NCBI GenBank assembly: GCA_946537565.1
Contig: CAMNFW010000003.1
Location: 1 to 22,859 of the forward strand
DNA: 22,859 nucleotides
From: an uncultured Ruminococcus sp.
GTDB taxonomy: Bacteria; Bacillota; Clostridia; Oscillospirales; Ruminococcaceae
Direction: 5' to 3'
The number at the start of each line of letters is the position of its first letter. Position 1 is the stretch's first letter. The position numbers were made by a program, and so were the translations under genes. Under the pieces are notes generated by a model. The model saw nothing but the letters and a program-made list of their open reading frames with translations. It was not told where the DNA came from and searched no databases. Positions 1 through 9,633 of this stretch are shown here, one piece after another.

Positions 1-1359
1 ACCGATTCTGACGGCAATGTAAATACCGTTGAAGGTGCTGTTTTCTCCCGTGATGATATCAAGTTCAAGGGCGTCGGCACTCTCACTGTCAACGGCAATC
101 AGGACGATGCTATCGTTTGCAAGAACGATATCAAGATCTACAACGGCACTATCAATGTAAACGCTGTTGATGACGGTATCAGAGGCAAGGACAGCGTTAC
201 TATCGGCAACGATTCTGACACTGATTTCAGCACCCTTAACCTTACTGTAAAGACTTCCTCCGGCGACGGTATCAAGTCCACTGCTACAGACACTGCAACT
301 GATAAATCCTATGGTCTTATCACTATCAACGGCGGTACGATCGACGTAACTGCTTATGCTGACGGAATCCAGGGCGAGCAGGAGGTCACTGTCAACGGCG
401 GTACTATCAACATTAAAACTACCGGTACATCTTCCGGTATGACAGGCTCAGATATTTCAGCAAAGGGAATCAAGGCTGTAGGCTTATACGCTGCTGACGG
501 AACAACTTATCAGAGCGCCGGTATCTTAAATATAAACGGCGGACTGATAACTGTAGATTCTAAGGACGATTGTCTGCACTGCGGCGGTGACGCATACCTC
601 AATGCCGGCAAGCTTAAACTTACTTCCGGTGATGATGCTGTTCACTCTGACAAATCACTCTACGTTGGCGGAACAACAGCTGGCACAGATTATACAAGCC
701 TTGAGGTTTATGTAACAGCTTGCTATGAGGGCTTTGAGGCTGTTTACATCTACCAGAACAACGGAAATATCTACATCATCTCCAGCGACGACGGCTTCAA
801 CGCAGCTGGCGGTGCAGATTCATCAGGAAGCTCCAGCACAGGCGGCTGGTCACAGGGTCCTGGCGGCATGGGCGGAGGTACATTCGGTGAAATGCACCTC
901 AACGGCGGTATCGTTTCTGTAAACACTTCATTCAACGATGCAGACGGCTTTGATTCCAACGGCAATCTGTACTTCAACGGCGGCTACTACTTCGGCAACG
1001 GCGGCGATTCCTTCGACTGCGGCGATGGATACTCTATCTCATACAACGGTGGATATGCTTTCGGCGGTCTCGGAATGGGCGGCAGCAGAGGCTATGATAT
1101 GTCCACACAGATGGTATTCACAACCACCAACGGCACAGTTCTTGCTTCCAGTATGACAGGTGCATCATTGAACTATTCCTACGGTGATTCCAATGTTCTG
1201 GCATATTCCGGCGCACAGATCTCCGGCGGTACAAACATTTCAACTCTTGGACAGCCGGCTGTATACATTTCCGGAACAGCATCAGGCGGTACAGCTAAAA
1301 CTCTCTCTCAGGGCGGTTCTACACAGCCCGGAGGTCCCGGCACAAATCCCTGGGGCTGA
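1..1359 (+). CDS. Carbohydrate-binding beta-helix protein, Cthe_2159-like (5' truncated)
   Basis: The reading frame is open from base 1 to the TGA at 1357-1359, so the N-terminus lies outside the window and 452 residues are visible. The protein is built of short repeated beta-strand turns of the type NGGTIxV, with many GDDG, DDG and SDD turns such as DDGIRG, SGDGIKS, DDCLHCGGDA and SGDDAVHS. This is the pattern of right-handed parallel beta-helices in the Cthe_2159 family (Pfam carbohydrate-binding domain, DUF4353), whose founding member from a cellulolytic Clostridium binds cellulose and pectin-like polymers and calcium. The last ~170 residues are Gly/Ser/Asn-rich and end in a PGGPGTNPWG tail. 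I infer a secreted or surface-anchored polysaccharide-binding role. The signal peptide cannot be seen. A secreted adhesin or polysaccharide lyase-like helix is the alternative. Family assignment is by pattern, not by search. Confidence 0.75.
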   Translation, partial: TDSDGNVNTVEGAVFSRDDIKFKGVGTLTVNGNQDDAIVCKNDIKIYNGTINVNAVDDGIRGKDSVTIGNDSDTDFSTLNLTVKTSSGDGIKSTATDTATDKSYGLITINGGTIDVTAYADGIQGEQEVTVNGGTINIKTTGTSSGMTGSDISAKGIKAVGLYAADGTTYQSAGILNINGGLITVDSKDDCLHCGGDAYLNAGKLKLTSGDDAVHSDKSLYVGGTTAGTDYTSLEVYVTACYEGFEAVYIYQNNGNIYIISSDDGFNAAGGADSSGSSSTGGWSQGPGGMGGGTFGEMHLNGGIVSVNTSFNDADGFDSNGNLYFNGGYYFGNGGDSFDCGDGYSISYNGGYAFGGLGMGGSRGYDMSTQMVFTTTNGTVLASSMTGASLNYSYGDSNVLAYSGAQISGGTNISTLGQPAVYISGTASGGTAKTLSQGGSTQPGGPGTNPWG

Positions 1360-1395
1360 TCTGGCAAGAGTTTAATTAAATAATCATAAGATAAA

Positions 1396-1433
1396 AAAAG
1401 AGTGCTGATCATTTCACAGGTCAGCACTCTTTT
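1396..1433. terminator. Bidirectional rho-independent terminator
   Basis: A 13-bp perfect stem (1396-1408 with 1421-1433, core AGTGCTGA/TCAGCACT) has a 12-nt loop. On the minus strand it is followed by a run of T, so it terminates the GGDEF gene ending at 1462. On the plus strand it ends in TTTT and can serve the carbohydrate-binding gene ending at 1359. Confidence 0.9.
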
Positions 1434-1461
1434 GCATTGAGGAAAAAGCAATAATGTCTGG

Positions 1462-2592
1462 TCAGCAGTTTCTGACGGCGTGTTTGTTTTTCTTCTCAGC
1501 ATACATATTTTCGTCCATTTCATGCAGGAAGGTATCAGTAGTCTCAGCAGCACCGTCATAGATACTGCTTCCCACGGACAGAGAAAGCTCATACATAGTT
1601 TCTCTTTGTTCATTGAACAGGGTAAGACTTTTTCTCAGTGAAGAGATTGCGGCATCAATGTCATTCTGCTTACCGGAGCGGAGCAGAACGATGAACTCGT
1701 CACCGGCAAAACGGCAGACGATAGCATCATCAGGCATTGAGCTGCTGATGATATTAGCGGCATTCACAAGAGCCTTGTCACCTTCCGTGTGGCCGAAGGT
1801 GTCGTTAATAATTTTAAAAAAATCCATGTCTATCATGAGACCGCCGTATTTAGAATGTTTGCGGCTCATATCCCTGAGAATATGGTCGAGGTAATTTCTG
1901 TTGTAAAGCTTAGTCAGGGGGTCGATGTAGGACAGTTCATTTTGCAGACACATGAAGGTGCCCACAAGTCCCATTGCCACTGAACACCACACCACTGAAA
2001 CACCGTAAAACAGCACCTGAACCACTGCTCCGAGACAGATAGGCGCTATGAACATATATATCGGGAAAAACTTGGTCTGCCCGTATTTTTTGTAGTAGAT
2101 CTGCCTAATTACAACGCTCTGGGCGAGGTTATAAACAGCGAAGAAAAAGTATAAATAACCGGTCAGGTTGCGGTGATAGATAAGACTATCATCTATGGTG
2201 AAAATATAATTAAACTTGAAATTCAGCAGGATCCCGATATATCCGATAAATGACGGTATACCGTATATCAGGGCATTTTTCCGCATATGCTCACGGCTGC
2301 GGTAGAGCCGGAGATCAACATACAGACACCACAGATAGGATACGGTTATGTTGCAGAAATAAAGGTAGCTGTTGATCAGCAAATCCCATAGATAAGCCAT
2401 AGAGAACACTTTTCCGTCAAGTATGAACGACAGCCCTTCAAGAATGCAGGCGCTGGCTGTCAGAAAGATCATGGCGGTGAAAATACGGTCTGTGACCTTT
2501 CGCCGGAGCCTGACCACATAGCTGTTTATCAGCAGAATCACAAGAATAACGCAGCCTATACCATTGGTTACAAGAATTGACTGCAAGCTCAT
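1462..2592 (-). CDS. Membrane-bound GGDEF diguanylate cyclase
   Basis: This 376-aa protein has an N-terminal integral-membrane sensor region of about six or seven hydrophobic segments (residues ~5-215) followed by a GGDEF domain. The domain opens with DPLTKLYNRNYL (224-235), continues through IDMDFFKIINDTFGH (254-268) and has the signature as AGDEF (296-300). It ends with MDENMYAEKK (359-368). GGDEF enzymes condense two GTP to c-di-GMP, and Ala in the first position is found in some active members. The RxxD product-inhibition I-site normally just before the signature is absent (MPDDAIVC precedes RFAGDEF). The start is fixed by TCCTCC (2598-2603), which reads GGAGGA on the minus strand five bases before ATG. 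A perfect sigma-A promoter lies just upstream. The gene is monocistronic and divergent from the kinase operon. The ligand of the membrane region is unknown. Confidence 0.9.
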   Translation of the reverse strand: MSLQSILVTNGIGCVILVILLINSYVVRLRRKVTDRIFTAMIFLTASACILEGLSFILDGKVFSMAYLWDLLINSYLYFCNITVSYLWCLYVDLRLYRSREHMRKNALIYGIPSFIGYIGILLNFKFNYIFTIDDSLIYHRNLTGYLYFFFAVYNLAQSVVIRQIYYKKYGQTKFFPIYMFIAPICLGAVVQVLFYGVSVVWCSVAMGLVGTFMCLQNELSYIDPLTKLYNRNYLDHILRDMSRKHSKYGGLMIDMDFFKIINDTFGHTEGDKALVNAANIISSSMPDDAIVCRFAGDEFIVLLRSGKQNDIDAAISSLRKSLTLFNEQRETMYELSLSVGSSIYDGAAETTDTFLHEMDENMYAEKKNKHAVRNC

Positions 2593-2908: not shown

Positions 2909-4681
2909 ATGATGTATACGGATAAAGAGCTTAAAGCAATGCGTGAGGAAGGTATGCTCACTGTTGTGATGAGAAACGCAATGAATGAGCTGGAAGATGA
3001 GTTCACCTCGCTTATCGACATCAACGCCTTCAACGCTAAGCTGGCAAAGCTGAAAAAAGCAAGAGGAAGGTCGGATTGGTCGAGTGTACTTGCCGGACTT
3101 TATGAGATGTTCCGTTCCTGCGGCATAAGCTTTGAGACCGGACGGGACTGGGATTATTATGCGGAGCTTGTGAAAAAGTCCGATATTCCACGGTTTATAG
3201 ACATTGAGGATAAAATAATGTACGCCCTCTACAAACGCTTCGGCGACTATCCTTCACCGGAGGAATACATGAAGCGCATTGTGGATAAGCTGTCAAATTC
3301 GGAGGATAACTGGCAGAATGACACTCTCCGGCTGAGGATATTGAAGCAGTTCATTAAATACGGCGGAACCCTGACTTTCAAGCGGCAGAACGCTGCCACG
3401 GGTAAAAATGAGGAGGTCAAGGTCTATAACGGCAAGCCTTATATTGTTAAATATGTCAAGAAAATAACCGGAAAAGCCCCGAAGCTCAACGATATCCTCG
3501 AAAATATCAGCGACGATATTTTTTCCTGCCTGGATTCTGCAACCAAAGATCAGAAAAAATCCGACGGCACTTATGGTATCCTCAAAATGGCTGACGACCT
3601 CGCTGCCGGAAAATTCCGCTCCGGCGGCGCTACTAAACGCAGCCTCTATTACTTCGCAATGGTCTATGGAATGACCTATTTTTCTGGAGCTTCCGGTGAA
3701 AAACGTGACCCGGCGACGGATATTGAAAAGAATCTCTTTCAGGATTATTACACCAATAATCTCGTGCGGTTCATCACTAATGCCTACAGCGGAAAGCTCA
3801 ATGAGTTTGAGTACGACCCTTCCGGTCAGGGCATCAATTATAAAAATTTTGCGGAAATGGTCTATATCTACTATATTTCCCGAAATATCAGCGGTGAGGA
3901 GAAAATCAAACGCTCCTATGAAATGATCGAACGACTCAAAAATTCTGCCTCAAAGCCTGTGGAAAGCTCCTCAATGGACACCGTGATGTACCGGGAAAAT
4001 TTCTTCACCGATACCCATATCCTTGACCATAACGGGGCGAATGTGCTGGAATACAGCGAGGAGGATTTTGAGAATTTTATCCGCCGCAGCTATAACTGTA
4101 ATCCCACCGATGAGACCGGTGCGGCAATTGGTGCATTGCAGGTGGAAAATGACCAGAATTCAGCTTTTGCAGCATACCGGGAGATAATCTCAATGCTGGA
4201 GTATGAGACCGCCGATGCTGACAGCTGTAATTACGGTCTGTGGTTCACGGACATTTCATCTTACCAGAAGGACGGCTATGGCAGCTTCCTTAAAAAGCAT
4301 CCCGATGCGGATAAGGAGAGGTTCAGCCAGCTGATTGGTCTGCTGAGCGGTATCAACGCCTATCTCGGCTATTCTGTGGACGAAAACGTGAACTTCAAGG
4401 ACAACCGCAGCGGCACGAAAAAATTCCGGCTGCGGGCGCTGAATATTACCAAGCCTTCGGAAATGACAAGAACCTCCATTGTAGTAGCTTATTATTACTT
4501 TTACAATGCACTGCATGAAAGCGATGACCCCGAAAACCGCAAGTCCTTTTCCGGGCTTTTCAATGATTTCAAGGACGGAATCGATGTTTACCTTGAACAG
4601 GCTGGCTATCAGGAATTCAGCGGAAGGAATATTTTTGACGTTATTACAGCCTTTTCAGCCTACGCATATCCTTATCTCTGA
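2909..4681 (+). CDS. Uncharacterised 590-aa protein, first gene of kinase/phosphatase operon
   Basis: I do not recognise a named family. The protein is soluble, with no signal peptide or membrane segment, and looks mainly alpha-helical with charged and aromatic-rich segments. The most motif-like stretch is about residues 220-292: GILKMADDLAAGKFRSGG, then TKRSLYYFAMVYGMTYFSG, then DIEKNLFQDYYTNNLVRF. It also contains FTDISSYQKDG, which superficially recalls a von Willebrand A metal site (DxSxS) but does not fit it. GGAG (2899-2902) is six bases before the first ATG and nine before a second ATG at 2912, so either could be used. A PP2C phosphatase follows 75 bp after the stop and a large kinase protein after that, which suggests it is a substrate, scaffold, sensor or effector regulated by those two enzymes. 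That role is inference from gene order only. Confidence 0.85.
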   Translation: MMYTDKELKAMREEGMLTVVMRNAMNELEDEFTSLIDINAFNAKLAKLKKARGRSDWSSVLAGLYEMFRSCGISFETGRDWDYYAELVKKSDIPRFIDIEDKIMYALYKRFGDYPSPEEYMKRIVDKLSNSEDNWQNDTLRLRILKQFIKYGGTLTFKRQNAATGKNEEVKVYNGKPYIVKYVKKITGKAPKLNDILENISDDIFSCLDSATKDQKKSDGTYGILKMADDLAAGKFRSGGATKRSLYYFAMVYGMTYFSGASGEKRDPATDIEKNLFQDYYTNNLVRFITNAYSGKLNEFEYDPSGQGINYKNFAEMVYIYYISRNISGEEKIKRSYEMIERLKNSASKPVESSSMDTVMYRENFFTDTHILDHNGANVLEYSEEDFENFIRRSYNCNPTDETGAAIGALQVENDQNSAFAAYREIISMLEYETADADSCNYGLWFTDISSYQKDGYGSFLKKHPDADKERFSQLIGLLSGINAYLGYSVDENVNFKDNRSGTKKFRLRALNITKPSEMTRTSIVVAYYYFYNALHESDDPENRKSFSGLFNDFKDGIDVYLEQAGYQEFSGRNIFDVITAFSAYAYPYL

Positions 4682-4756
4682 GCATTGGAATACCGCCGGA
4701 AAGCTTGTGCCGCAGATAATTTTACGTTGGATAAAACTATGAAAGGAGCGACAGAA

Positions 4757-5458
4757 TTGACTTTTTTCTGGAGCAGAGCAGGCAGCTTTCATTCCTGTCA
4801 GGAGGATAAAAATCAGGACAGGGTAATGTCTGCGGAAAATGAACGGTTCACCGTTATTACCCTGGCGGACGGCGCAAGCGGCTGTCCGGAATCAGGTACA
4901 GGCGCTGAAATTGCCTGCGAAGCGGTTACAGCGCTGTTTCTGAGCAGAGCGGAGATGTTTTTCGGTTTCAACAGAAGAGAGACCGCAGATTTTGTGCTGG
5001 GTCACATAAGACATAGGATAAAGAAGCGTGCAGAGGCTGAAAACCGCTGTATTTCCGATTATTCCAGCACAATTGCCAGTGTGATATGTGACAGCAGGCT
5101 GAACAGGTTTTTTTATTTCAGTCTCGGTGACAGCCTTATTGCTGGTACTGACAAGAGCCGCTGTTTTATGATAGCGATGCCCCCGGACAGCTTTGGCGGC
5201 ACCTGTATGACTACTACCGAAAATGCCGAAAAACTGGCGGAATGCGGAGTTGTCCAGGGCAGGGAAGTGGACACGGTTTTTATTTGCTCGGACGGAGCGT
5301 GGAGGCTGATGTTTGAGCGGAACAGGCTTTATAAGGATATGGAGCGATTGCTGGTTGAGGGCGATTTTAAGGGGCTGAGCGAAGCTGTCGTGCAGAAGGA
5401 GAGCTTTGACGATCACAGTCTGATATGCTGTGACATGAGCCGCCGGATAATAGCTTAA
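4757..5458 (+). CDS. PP2C-family protein phosphatase
   Basis: This is a 233-aa PP2C/PPM-type Ser/Thr phosphatase using two Mn2+ or Mg2+ ions. The acidic metal ligands are all visible: NQDR (Asp21), LADGAS (Asp38), SDGAW (Asp179) and DDHS (Asp218/219). A SLGDS strand is also present in the middle. AAAGGAG (4742-4748) is eight bases before a TTG codon at 4757, and the product then begins TFFWSRAGSFHSCQEDKNQDR, a normal PP2C N-terminus. An in-frame ATG at 4739 would overlap the ribosome binding site, so TTG is preferred. The enzyme is shorter than many PP2Cs (~240-250 aa) but looks complete and cytosolic. It sits 32 bp before the kinase gene, so I infer that it reverses phosphorylation made by that kinase, either on the kinase itself or on the 590-aa partner. 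Confidence 0.88.
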   Translation: MTFFWSRAGSFHSCQEDKNQDRVMSAENERFTVITLADGASGCPESGTGAEIACEAVTALFLSRAEMFFGFNRRETADFVLGHIRHRIKKRAEAENRCISDYSSTIASVICDSRLNRFFYFSLGDSLIAGTDKSRCFMIAMPPDSFGGTCMTTTENAEKLAECGVVQGREVDTVFICSDGAWRLMFERNRLYKDMERLLVEGDFKGLSEAVVQKESFDDHSLICCDMSRRIIA

Positions 5459-5490: not shown

Positions 5491-8400
5491 ATGAATAGAT
5501 TCTACTTGAAAAAATCCTCAGTGATATCCCTTAAGGCTGAGGACGAGGACAATATCAGGACGTTCACTGTCGAGAAAAAAATCAAAGCCGGCAGCAGTGC
5601 TGTGACCTATTACGCCCATTACAGCGGCAGCGGCACCGGTGTGCTTAAGGAATTTTACCCGAAGGACGCTTATGCTCAGCTGGGACTTTTGCGTGACAGC
5701 GAGAATCAGCTGGTGTATGACAGCGCTCTTGAGGACGGTGCTGAACAGTTCAGGGCGGCGGCTGAGAGATATATATCCACCTACAAAACTCTGCTCAGGG
5801 CTAAAAGGTCAGGCAGGAAAAATGACGTATTATCGACATTTATTCCGCATTTTGAGATTTTCCGCAGCCTTGACCCGGATTACGGCTCGGTCTATATATG
5901 GACTACCGACCCTAATCTTGTCACCTTCGATAAGATCTGTCAGGAGATCCATTCTGACCCGGAGGATAAGCCTGAACACAAGCTGGTGCAGATTCTCTGT
6001 GCTATTGAATCGCTGAACGAGTGTATCTGTGAGCTGCATAAGCTGGGAATGCTCCACCGTGACATCAAGCCTGCCAATTTTGGTTTTGAGAAGCGTGGCG
6101 AGAAAACCCTTACCCAGTCCTTGACCATGTTCGATATCGACACCGTATGCTCGGTATTTGACCCGCCGGCGGATAAAGCCGGAACACCGGGTTTTACCGA
6201 GAAGGAACAGCGACTGAATCCGCCTACCAATCAGACCGATATCTATGGCATCGGTGCGACTTTGTTTTCAGCCCTTGTGGTCAGCAATGAGAGCCGTCAG
6301 AAGAGTCTGGTCTATAAAGATGAGTATTTTCCGCACCTGAAAGAAATGGTGGACAGCTCCGAGCTGATTCAGGCTTCCGAGGCAAACTCCCACCCCACCC
6401 TCCGCAATATCCTGACGGAAATTCTTAAAAAATCCCTGTGCAGCCGTGACAAAAGATACAGCTGCTGTGAGGAGCTGGCTGAGGATATCAAGCGTGCCAA
6501 ATATTACGCTCTGCCTTCGGAAATTGCTAAGGATATGTCACCCTCCGAGCGGTGGATACTTGCGGACGTTGATAAATTCCTTGACAAGAATACCGAGCGC
6601 AGCACCACCCTCGCCCTCCAGTATCAGCTCTACACCGAACCGCTGTACAAGCACACCGATAACACCGGAAATGCTGTGAATATCTATGTTTTCGGCTTTG
6701 GAAAATACGGCAGGCGGTTCACCGATCTGGCAGCCCAGACCGGTCAGATGCCGGAGATAAAGCTGAATATCACCGCTGTCTCCAATCGTGAAAGCGATGC
6801 AGCTGAATATCTTTCTGACCGCCCTGAACTGGAGAAATTCTTCAACTTCAACGGCAGCATCACCAATGACCCCGAATGCTATGGAAATATCTCCACGAGA
6901 GTTATGGAGCTTGACCCCGATGACAGCTCTCAGCAGCGGCTTATGAAGTCCTTCAGCCGTAAAAAACCGGGTTATATTTTCATTGCCCTGGGCAGCGATA
7001 AGCTCAACGAAAAATTTGCTTCCGTCCTTAGCAGGCTCAACACCGGCAGTTACATCTGTTATGTCCGGGAAAGCCGTGTGGAGAAAAAAGCCGCAGCCGG
7101 TACGGATATCATAAAAGTTTACGATGACCTGAGCCGTTATAAGTTCAGCAGTGAGATCGAACGAATGGCTTTCAACACCCATATGCTCTGGAAAAGCGAT
7201 CTCAGCATCGACTATAAAAAAGTCCGGGCAGAATTTCGTGTTCCCTACAACCACGATTCCAGCGTATCTTCGATACTTTCCATAAAGTATAAGCTTTACA
7301 GCATGGGAATTGATCTGGAGCAGCTCAGCAATGAGGAAGCTGCCAGGCAGTTTCTGGAGGTCATGAGGAAAAACAGCAAAATGACCGATTTGCTCATATG
7401 CTACGAGCATCGCAGGTGGACGGCAGAAAAAATCTGCGAAGGCTATACACGCATCACCGACCTCAGTGAGTGCAGGGCTGGAAAATCTTCCACCCGTGAC
7501 AAAAAAAATAAGCGGCATATCTGTATTGTCCGCAGCCGTCCGGAGCGTCCGCTGGAAACAAGCTTCAGCCGTGAAAAGTGGGACAGCTGCACTAAAGAAG
7601 AACTGCAAAAGCTGGACGAGCTGGACAGAATGTCAGTTGAACTGCACAGAATGTACCGGCGCTATGCGGAGGAAGCCAGGCGGCAGAATATCATCACCGG
7701 CGAGAGCATAAACGGTGTCAGAACGCTGATAAGCAGCGACCCTTCGGCATCTGCGGCATTTCAGGAGTGGTACAGCTGCATCAAGGATATCTGGAACGGC
7801 GACAGCGAAAAATCCAGGCTGTACACCGGTCTTAAGGACGCTTTCGAGGCTTCGCTCAAAGGTTATACCAATGAAGAGAAAAATTCTGTGAAAGGGCTTG
7901 TCCAGTCTTTTGATTCACAGTTTTACCCAATTTACGCCAGCATGGAGTATACCAATTACAAAAATAATGACGCCCAGCTGATCAAAAATATCCCCTTCAT
8001 ACTTACCAACAGCAGCAGTATTTATCTTGCCGTACCCTTTGTTGAGGGTGATAATAATTCCATGTTTGCGAATGTCGCCTCCGCCACGGTCATCGACCCG
8101 GCAAAGGTCATTTACCTGAGTTACATCAATTCCAACGAGGAGCTTAAGGCGCTGAAAAAAACACTGGTCTATATCTCCGGCTATATGCTTAAGAAAAAGC
8201 TTCGTGCTTCGGTGGAATTCATCATCGGCAGCAAAAATACCGGCAGTGCAGTTTTTGAGGATATCGAAAACCAGCTCAGGGAACTGTCCGGCGGCAGGGT
8301 GAAAGCTGTGAAGCTTGTTGAAGATAAAAACAGCCGGGCGTTTGCGGGCAGTCTTGATGATATATTTTCCGGCAGCAGATTTTCGGGGCATTATTTTGCA

Positions 8401-9633
8401 GTCGAAAACAATGACACTGCTCTGTCCGGGGTAATGTACGGCTATGGTCTTCATGAGAAATACCGGGGATATGAGTTTGATTCTGCGGAGCTTAAATTCA
8501 CTTCGCTCTGTGACGAGATCTGCATTTTCAGCTATGTGACACGGAAACCGAAAATGAGCGTGTCGGATATGGCAGCCTTCAAGCAGTCCGGCAGCGCAGG
8601 TGCAGATCAGCCGGAGTTTTACAACGAATACCGGGAGCTTTGGAAGGTCTACCAGAAAGACCCGTGGGCATGGAAACAGTTCTGCACCGTTATCGGAAAG
8701 GCGGCTGCACAGTCGGACAGTCTGGCTTCATTCAGCTTTGTAAGTCAGTCGCAGAAGAATGAAAAAACGGCCGTATATCGGTATTTATTGCCGTTTCAGT
8801 GCAGCCGTGCAGCAAGAAAGATAACCAGTCAGCTGCTGGAAAGCAAGGTCATTGAAGGCGGCAGCGAGGTCAACGGCTACACCTCGGATTCCTGCGAGGT
8901 CATGATCAGGGACAGGACAGGCAATAAACGCAGCTTTGACAGGGTTTTCACCAACATCATCGCACTTATGTCACCGGAAAGCATTACCGCATATTTCGAC
9001 CCCCACCGCAAAGAGGTCAAAGTTGAGTATGACGATCTGTACATACGCAATGCGGATATTTCCCGGCTCACTAATGACGAGTACGTCAAGGTCATGAAGC
9101 TGGCGGAGTATTTTGAATCCATAGGCTTTATCATGGGACTGCGGGAGGTGGATAAAAAGCTGAGCCTGATATTTGCCACCCACCAGATCAAGCATCTCCT
9201 GACGGTTCAGGGCAGAATGCTGGAGGTCTACACCTACCACAAGGTCAAGGAGACCGGCGGTTTTGACGATGCAGCCAGCAGCTTTGAGGTGAACTGGGAA
9301 GGCACTACGGTGAAGAGCGAGTTTGACTGCATATTGACCAAAGGCTTCCGGACGCTGTTTGTGGAATGCAAAGCCAGACCGGAGATCGAAAGCGGATTTT
9401 ATGAAAAGCTCACGTCCCAGGTCAAGCAGTTCGGCATAAATGCAAAGGCAGTGCTGGTCATTGACACCCAGGAGAAGGAGTGGTATTTCACCGCAAAGCT
9501 CAACGATACCAGACGGCAGCAGGGCGATATGCTTGACATAATCACAGTCTGGAAGCCTGATGAGATCGAGAATATTGGCGAGACACTTCTCAGCATCATC
9601 AACGGCACCTATCAGAAGGATATCAGATCATAG
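5491..9633 (+). CDS. Multidomain Ser/Thr kinase - Rossmann - RyR - Card1-like nuclease protein
   Basis: This is a 1380-aa soluble protein. Residues ~25-340 are a eukaryotic-type protein kinase: a glycine-rich turn IKAGSSAVTY (31-40), Lys53 in VLKEFYP, the catalytic loop HRDIKPAN (189-196), DID (215-217) in place of DFG, and GTPGF (231-235). Residues ~395-530 begin VFGFGKYG (400-407), a GxGxxG Rossmann start like TrkA-N, with a second strand at IFIALGSD (496-503). Residues ~636-724 carry EHRRWTAEKICEGY (639-652) and LDRMSVELHRMYRR (711-724), matching the bacterial RyR domain pattern. Residues ~830-1000 are unassigned alpha/beta. Residues ~1235-1330 fit the Card1/DUF1887 nuclease: GRMLEVYTY (1241-1249), SEFDC with Asp1279 and VECKA with Glu1292 and Lys1294, a PD-(D/E)XK set. 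AAAGGAAGG (5472-5480) supports the start. A signalling kinase with a nuclease effector is my inference; the kinase call is the firmest. Confidence 0.85.
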   Translation: MNRFYLKKSSVISLKAEDEDNIRTFTVEKKIKAGSSAVTYYAHYSGSGTGVLKEFYPKDAYAQLGLLRDSENQLVYDSALEDGAEQFRAAAERYISTYKTLLRAKRSGRKNDVLSTFIPHFEIFRSLDPDYGSVYIWTTDPNLVTFDKICQEIHSDPEDKPEHKLVQILCAIESLNECICELHKLGMLHRDIKPANFGFEKRGEKTLTQSLTMFDIDTVCSVFDPPADKAGTPGFTEKEQRLNPPTNQTDIYGIGATLFSALVVSNESRQKSLVYKDEYFPHLKEMVDSSELIQASEANSHPTLRNILTEILKKSLCSRDKRYSCCEELAEDIKRAKYYALPSEIAKDMSPSERWILADVDKFLDKNTERSTTLALQYQLYTEPLYKHTDNTGNAVNIYVFGFGKYGRRFTDLAAQTGQMPEIKLNITAVSNRESDAAEYLSDRPELEKFFNFNGSITNDPECYGNISTRVMELDPDDSSQQRLMKSFSRKKPGYIFIALGSDKLNEKFASVLSRLNTGSYICYVRESRVEKKAAAGTDIIKVYDDLSRYKFSSEIERMAFNTHMLWKSDLSIDYKKVRAEFRVPYNHDSSVSSILSIKYKLYSMGIDLEQLSNEEAARQFLEVMRKNSKMTDLLICYEHRRWTAEKICEGYTRITDLSECRAGKSSTRDKKNKRHICIVRSRPERPLETSFSREKWDSCTKEELQKLDELDRMSVELHRMYRRYAEEARRQNIITGESINGVRTLISSDPSASAAFQEWYSCIKDIWNGDSEKSRLYTGLKDAFEASLKGYTNEEKNSVKGLVQSFDSQFYPIYASMEYTNYKNNDAQLIKNIPFILTNSSSIYLAVPFVEGDNNSMFANVASATVIDPAKVIYLSYINSNEELKALKKTLVYISGYMLKKKLRASVEFIIGSKNTGSAVFEDIENQLRELSGGRVKAVKLVEDKNSRAFAGSLDDIFSGSRFSGHYFAVENNDTALSGVMYGYGLHEKYRGYEFDSAELKFTSLCDEICIFSYVTRKPKMSVSDMAAFKQSGSAGADQPEFYNEYRELWKVYQKDPWAWKQFCTVIGKAAAQSDSLASFSFVSQSQKNEKTAVYRYLLPFQCSRAARKITSQLLESKVIEGGSEVNGYTSDSCEVMIRDRTGNKRSFDRVFTNIIALMSPESITAYFDPHRKEVKVEYDDLYIRNADISRLTNDEYVKVMKLAEYFESIGFIMGLREVDKKLSLIFATHQIKHLLTVQGRMLEVYTYHKVKETGGFDDAASSFEVNWEGTTVKSEFDCILTKGFRTLFVECKARPEIESGFYEKLTSQVKQFGINAKAVLVIDTQEKEWYFTAKLNDTRRQQGDMLDIITVWKPDEIENIGETLLSIINGTYQKDIRS

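Follow-up and report, generated by a model that had tools for sequence, protein, structure and literature searches.

A kinase, an RyR-like domain and a Card1-type nuclease in one protein of an uncultured Ruminococcus: a possible new class of bacterial immune receptor

A single gene in a 22,859-nucleotide stretch of DNA from an uncultured Ruminococcus species (contig CAMNFW010000003.1 of assembly GCA_946537565.1; hereafter, the window) encodes a large fusion protein that joins a protein kinase, a TrkA/RCK-type Rossmann domain, an RyR-like domain, a divergent CARF domain and a PD-(D/E)XK nuclease. The gene is the last of three in an operon, behind genes for a helical protein, U590, and for a PP2C-type phosphatase, and this three-gene cluster is common to most of its relatives, which suggests an undescribed bacterial alarm-and-response system. 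The muscle ryanodine receptor contains a relative of the RyR-like domain, and the nuclease unit is of a kind known from defence against viruses. We tentatively regard the cluster as a defence operon of the abortive-infection type, in which the large protein would be receptor and executor in one chain. A more specific proposal, possible but held with greater reserve, is that the RyR domain senses an ADP-ribose-type signal made by a TIR enzyme and, through a kinase/phosphatase gate, drives the Card1-type nuclease, with the CARF domain as a hinge, and would thus represent a new class of immune receptor. The protein and its parts are as follows.

5491..9633, + strand: large fusion protein, 1380 amino acids, ATG start, from the open reading frame (ORF) listing
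5491..6525, + strand: protein kinase domain, residues 1-345 (K53, HRD with D191, N196, D215), from Pfam and the catalytic residues
6589..7125, + strand: TrkA/RCK-type Rossmann domain, residues 367-545 (GxGxxG at 402-407), from a fold match
7330..7695, + strand: RyR (R12)-like domain, residues about 614-735 (H640, W643, H676, D709/D712), from hhalign and the kept residues
8011..8550, + strand: divergent CARF domain, residues 841-1020, TGG loop replaced by ENNDTALS, from hhalign, a structural match and a motif tally
8608..9102, + strand: linker region, residues 1040-1204, from hhalign and secondary structure
9103..9615, + strand: PD-(D/E)XK nuclease domain, residues 1205-1375 (D1279, E1292, K1294), from PF09002, hhalign and a fold match

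The initial annotation of this DNA had read the ORF as one polypeptide, and both the ORF listing and the relatives bear this out. A chance ORF or an assembly join was ruled out by a relative in another genome, found among 297 genomes of the same family and 40% identical across residues 16-1374, and by further loci. Two other same-family relatives align over much of the protein, and one of these lacks the kinase. Searches at the order and class levels (394 and 391 genomes) yielded additional loci, and a contig scan queried with an alignment of four relatives returned 22 loci, mainly in metagenome-assembled genomes of Clostridia with gut or rumen titles, together with two Synergistota records. 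The fusion had also been called unusual. The open-licence papers searched contain no description of a kinase-RCK-RyR-CARF-nuclease architecture (an earlier mention elsewhere is possible). The family itself recurs in Clostridia and in the two Synergistota. With L050 and L058 removed as lying on the same contigs as L021 and L036, the 33 large-protein rows came to 31. Alignment A4 comprised the window and 17 of the 22 scan loci (L050, L051, L053, L057 and L061 left out), and alignment A5 the window and 16 scan loci (L046, L050, L051, L053, L056 and L061 left out).

All residues named in the initial annotation stand where it placed them: Lys53, His189-Arg190-Asp191, Asn196 and Asp215-Ile-Asp217 in the kinase, Gly402/404/407 in the Rossmann domain, Glu639-His-Arg-Arg-Trp643 in the RyR-like domain, and Asp1279, Glu1292 and Lys1294 in the nuclease. 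Its kinase and RyR-like parts are likewise supported by profile comparison, its Rossmann part by the predicted fold and its Card1-like nuclease part by both. It had further proposed that the kinase, the RyR-like domain or an unassigned region at 830-1000 would take the controlling role of a CARF domain; that region is itself a CARF domain. On the whole protein, Pfam gave the kinase and the Card1 endonuclease, both below curated cut-offs, plus one chance zinc finger, and PADLOC gave kinase models and CARF_PDDEXK models. Kinases dominated the best 60 of 137 matches when the single protein was searched against PDB sequences, alignment A4 returned 19 weak matches there (best E 0.091), and a search of a viral structure library gave no match at E 0.001 or better.

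The C-terminal half is a complete Card1/Can2-type unit, with CARF fold, linker and PD-(D/E)XK nuclease in that order. A CARF domain at residues 841-1020 was recovered by hhalign at 96.5-97.2%, and the predicted structure matches VC1899, Can2, Cdn1 and Card1, the CARF part alone also matching Csa3; an absence of CARF from the fusion protein is thereby ruled out. The usual TGG ligand loop after strand 4 reads ENNDTALS in the window. Among 26 rows, five others being too short to tally and the loop alignment being shaky in the most distant rows, the loop is TGG-like in two (L034 and L035), follows an ExNx(S/T)xLS-like pattern, (E/Q)x(N/K)x(S/T/A)x(L/V/I)(S/T/F), in 18 and fits neither type in six. 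A conserved basic residue after strand 4 is part of the CARF ligand pocket, according to the available portion of PMC4012209. Because the TGG loop is replaced and the strand-4 loop belongs to the ligand pocket, a standard CARF ligand appears unlikely from the sequence; the domain may bind another kind of ligand or no ligand at all. The linker contains an insert and in part resembles the central portion of stand-alone Card1-like proteins; hhalign gave 80.0% over 58 columns against the middle slice of that family and 34.4% against the whole protein.

For the nuclease domain, PF09002 (Card1 endonuclease) matched residues 1240-1326 at E 1e-5, below its cut-off, and PADLOC's CARF_PDDEXK models matched within 1188-1371 (best E 1.3e-8). 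hhalign reached 99.8%; of 20 column-shuffled controls one gave 99.4, and no value in a 30-control repeat exceeded 3.8. The predicted structure of residues 1235-1330, where the initial annotation had agreed in advance to be judged on a PD-(D/E)XK fold, matches nucleases of the Card1/Can2 type. Among the 28 rows that reach the nuclease, the positions of D1279, E1292 and K1294 read D-E-K in 18, D-S-K in two and N-E-K in one cut row. As a separate observation, ten stand-alone Card1-like proteins (L005, L006, L009, L010, L011, L014, L015, L017, L018 and L019) all carry Ser for the catalytic Glu (D...SxK), yet keep a strand-4 loop of the form (D/E)xTGG, with SGG in one.

The RyR-like domain was compared with RyR profiles built from five, nine and ten sequences. 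hhalign gave 59.6% with five sequences (shuffles at most 2.9), 93.1% with nine (shuffles at most 0.5), a profile for which only four of 13 fetched RyR loci passed the motif and position filter, one of them a poor fragment, and 88.1% with ten. All 12 PDB matches of the RyR-like profile were ryanodine receptors (best E 0.0038). The RyR ligand residues (HxxW, a second His and an Asp) are kept in 27 of 29 rows, better across the family than the nuclease residues are. All four ligand and catalytic positions of the phage protein RyDEP have counterparts in the fusion protein, namely H640, W643, H676 and D709 or D712, one or the other of the last two corresponding to RyDEP D117.

Four stand-alone RyR genes beside the operon, at L036:12862-13143, L037:11230-11511, L048:6951-7244 and L054:14177-14479, keep the HxxW and the Asp and have Thr in place of the second His of RyDEP and the fusion protein. 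At L039:5514-13898 (+), a protein with a hydrophobic N-terminus, judged by eye, carries a Rossmann/EHRRW region like that of the fusion protein (L007), and is followed by a 792-amino-acid gene and then by a Tubulin_2 gene (PF13809, E 4e-57). This locus may be another system that uses the putative Rossmann/EHRRW sensor part.

The kinase was matched by Pfam over residues 174-326 (E 2.6e-5, below the cut-off) and exceeds the cut-off in relatives, for example with 71.2 bits in L036. Its nearest profiles are PknB/LanL-like and PD-T4-6/Mokosh. With three of the 31 rows cut or lacking the kinase, 28 have a letter at all four catalytic positions, and K53, D191, N196 and D215 are kept in 27 of them, the only exception being L056 (K/S/S/P). 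Structural comparison places residues 367-545 with the RCK N-domain fold.

The fusion gene travels with two partners, which precede it in the window.

2909..4681, + strand: first operon gene, U590, 590 amino acids, mostly helical
4685..5458, + strand: second operon gene, PP2C-type protein phosphatase, 257 amino acids (PF13672, E 1.6e-19)

The genes mostly overlap or sit tens of bases apart. Of 26 loci with at least 2.6 kb of upstream sequence, 21 have a U590 relative and 18 a PP2C gene, and one further locus carries PP2C as a part of the large protein. In that case (L046:3602-8515, +), PP2C stands ahead of the kinase in a single chain of 1637 amino acids whose nuclease site is degenerate. Neither U590 nor PP2C was found at L032 and L034, where the kinase is absent, or at L056, where Ser replaces the catalytic Asp; the chance of this co-absence is 0.004 for U590 and 0.013 for PP2C on the assumption of independent rows, which these are not. 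U590 itself gave no recognised family and no convincing fold in a structural comparison that hardly probes residues beyond 114, so a new fold does not follow from this result. The kinase-less L032 and L034 keep RCK-RyR-CARF-nuclease, L061 is kinase-RCK-RyR without CARF or nuclease, and the Rossmann-EHRRW part recurs in L007; the protein is therefore built of separate input and output parts.

Genes for RyR and TIR domains lie near the operon in part of the family. Counting the window's genome among 28, a stand-alone RyR gene adjoins the operon in nine, lying 3-249 bases downstream in seven (L032, L037, L044, L052, L054, L057 and L058) and upstream in L047 and L048. Of the 28 family genomes, 16 have a PF02026 match at E 0.001 or better (15 over the cut-off), versus 7 of 119 and 3 of 199 comparison genomes. 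TIR_2 domains are present in the fetched locus of nine of the 28 genomes. Seven of 19 loci hold ten such domains (L040, L047, L048 with two, L054 with two, L055, L058 with two, and L061), where 0.495 would be expected, and two of nine further genomes, G331 and G769, also have them; L054, L055 and L058 were placed by coordinates, and L040, L047, L048 and L061 were confirmed directly. Eight of the 18 strong RyR genes have a TIR_2 domain no more than 5 kb away, where 0.28 would be expected.

Three loci bring TIR and RyR domains close together. At L047:3935-7375 (+), about 100 bases upstream of a U590-PP2C-fusion operon, a protein of 1146 amino acids runs TIR-NTPase (NPHP3_N/NACHT-like)-TPR-RyR, and is thus NLR-like with a canonical RyR domain at its end. 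L061:2348-10213 (+) holds a ThsB-like TIR gene, U590 and the kinase-RCK-RyR-like gene, with overlaps of 8 and 4 bases; the last of these has a second RyR match at its end (PF02026, E 9.6e-6, just below the cut-off). At L081:6275-9940 (-), far from the same genome's fusion gene, a TIR protein with propeller-like repeats lies 3 bases from a 96-amino-acid RyR gene.

In the mechanism that we propose, infection would prompt a TIR enzyme to make an ADP-ribose-type nucleotide, which the RyR-like domain would bind; the TIR gene adjoins the operon in some relatives and would lie on another contig in the window's genome. The kinase and PP2C would set the phosphorylation state of the fusion protein, of the helical partner U590 or of both. 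Binding and phosphorylation state together would rearrange a dimeric CARF-nuclease unit and switch on nucleic-acid cleavage, the CARF domain acting as dimer hinge, its standard role of sensing cyclic oligoadenylate having been lost. The Card1 unit would be the usual but not the only output, with the RCK Rossmann domain as a possible sensor of NAD or of a second nucleotide. Computation supports the order of domains, their predicted folds, the operon, the conserved sites and the RyR and TIR genes near relatives, whereas the ligand, the dimer, the signalling direction, the gating by kinase and phosphatase and the part played in defence are inferred.

Several observations weigh against this proposal. 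The best PDB match of the RyR-like profile does not align the HxxW in register, and the RyR3 matches that do stand at E 0.22; the match to the RyR profile is local, covering 41-43 of about 91 columns. None of 29 member slices reaches the PF02026 cut-off, five match at all (best E 0.018) and the window's does not; its best Pfam match is the unrelated Serum_albumin (E 2.3e-4, below the cut-off, in one of 29 members). RyR is also missing from the whole-protein structural matches listed, which other domains fill, the RyR-like domain not having been searched alone. As to the neighbourhoods, the Poisson expectations for TIR_2 and RyR ignore clustering, TIR is absent from the fetched locus in 19 of the 28 genomes, and the presence of TIR and RyR genes nearby may reflect common defence islands and no common signalling. 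At the window's own locus there is neither a TIR gene nor a separate RyR gene, no PF02026 match was found in the window's genome, and the two TIR_2 matches of that genome, one below the cut-off, lie on contigs other than the window's. Seven of 28 rows have a degenerate nuclease site, and the state of the site changes at least seven times on the tree, so its loss is recurrent and nuclease activity cannot be the only output. Finally, 17 of the 28 genomes have Csm1 matches at E 0.001 or better, most of them short, and the Csm1 cut-off is strict, being exceeded in only three of seven matching control genomes; these genomes may therefore, on sequence grounds, hold divergent Cas10 proteins.

The alternative that survives best, in our judgement a fairly unlikely one, is a phospho-signalling hub in which the main output comes from the kinase and the CARF-nuclease unit serves as a dimerisation scaffold or an optional second effector, with RyR and RCK tuning the kinase and PP2C resetting it. 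The near-invariance of the kinase residues beside a nuclease site that decays so often fits such a hub, as do the loss of U590 and PP2C wherever the kinase is absent or dead and the survival of kinase-RCK-RyR alone in L061. However, the kinase-less L032 and L034 keep the remaining domains with DEK and DSK sites, most rows retain the full DEK site, and no PP2C was found in five loci with an intact kinase (L033, L035, L041, L042 and L061).

A housekeeping regulator responsive to stress or to K+/NAD, with no part in defence, is unlikely. The TrkA/RCK-type domain would suit it, and kinase plus PP2C pairs are also known from ordinary regulation. The distribution is patchy, however: the fusion gene is absent from the four same-genus genomes shown, and in a tree of 29 rows, most of whose forks are not starred and whose long rows are unsure, the Synergistota pair nests within Bacillota, which points, as far as sequences allow, to horizontal transfer. 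The TIR and RyR genes linked to some family members also speak against it.

We think it decidedly improbable that the RyR-like domain works as phage RyDEP does, as an off-switch enzyme degrading the TIR-made signal to limit the host alarm while the kinase or U590 controls the nuclease. The counterparts of all four RyDEP ligand and catalytic positions, as given in the accessible text of PMC13232231, would allow it. In the same text, however, six of eight phage homologues bound signals and those other than RyDEP did not cleave them, and fusion to an effector would favour a sensor.

A Card1/Can2-type ancillary effector of type III CRISPR, its nuclease triggered by cyclic oligoadenylate at the CARF domain and regulated by the other domains, has the shared fold and the weak or partial Csm1 matches behind it and is very unlikely given the replaced TGG loop and the scarcity of strong Csm1 and Cmr2 matches, on which a simple form of it was set aside as the leading reading: among the 28 draft genomes Csm1 is over the cut-off in three and Cmr2 in none, and the window's genome (draft, 90% complete) has no match to either, other cyclic-oligonucleotide makers not having been searched for.

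Beyond the operon, window positions 1-2592 hold a Cthe_2159-type carbohydrate-binding protein and a GGDEF protein that adjoin it, with no link to the operon seen. Relatives of the GGDEF gene at E 1e-30 or better occur in two of ten other same-genus genomes, and the stretches fetched around them hold no other window genes. The base composition of the operon is not odd relative to the window.

The family matters in several ways. One chain joins an RyR-like domain with its ligand residues kept to an immunity-type nuclease, and part of the family is clustered with TIR enzymes; what bacterial RyR domains sense and switch thereby becomes directly testable. A Card1-type nuclease is here tied to a kinase-phosphatase pair and lacks the usual CARF ligand loop. 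If the proposal is right, cells would possess their own equivalent of the phage RyR proteins, which destroy or sequester such signals, and the animal connection between RyR and cyclic ADP-ribose (cADPR) would have a bacterial parallel. We know of no PknB/LanL-like or PD-T4-6/Mokosh kinase system with this architecture. By title and start of abstract, no relevant open-licence paper treated CARF together with RyR, and none was found on RyR domains in prokaryotic conflict systems or in bacteria with CARF and kinase.

Over its C-terminal half the fusion protein shares predicted fold, domain order and D/ExK active site with Card1, Can2, Cdn1 and VC1899. Unlike these, it is a 1380-residue multidomain protein with an altered CARF loop and added kinase, RCK and RyR-like domains, and it sits in an operon with PP2C and U590, with little sign of type III CRISPR. 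The nearest precedent is the kinase-AAA+-CARF-wHTH family (Makarova et al. 2014, PMC4012209, in the portion available), in which the kinase also lies upstream of CARF and for which kinase-mediated signalling was suggested; that family differs in having a Zn ribbon and an AAA+ ATPase upstream of CARF and wHTH, and the term RyR is absent from the paper's main text. Phage RyR-domain proteins are reported to bind or cleave TIR-made cADPR signals, and the accessible text of PMC13232231 describes no cellular bacterial RyR receptor for them. RyDEP, its phage relatives and the bacterial 3nrt share with our domain the HxxW, second His and Asp, and an ADP-ribose-type nucleotide is the likely ligand; the fusion differs in falling below the Pfam cut-off, in a longer loop and in that its domain belongs to a multidomain protein of the cell, whereas the phage proteins serve evasion. 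Compared with Thoeris, in which, as outlined in the excerpts available, a TIR protein is paired with an effector that senses cADPR isomers, the proposed system would use RyR as its sensor, not SLOG or macro, and a nuclease as its executor, and the window's contig has no TIR gene. The proposed logic is nonetheless the same, a TIR-made nucleotide acting on a separate receptor-effector, and the L061 operon includes a ThsB-like TIR gene.

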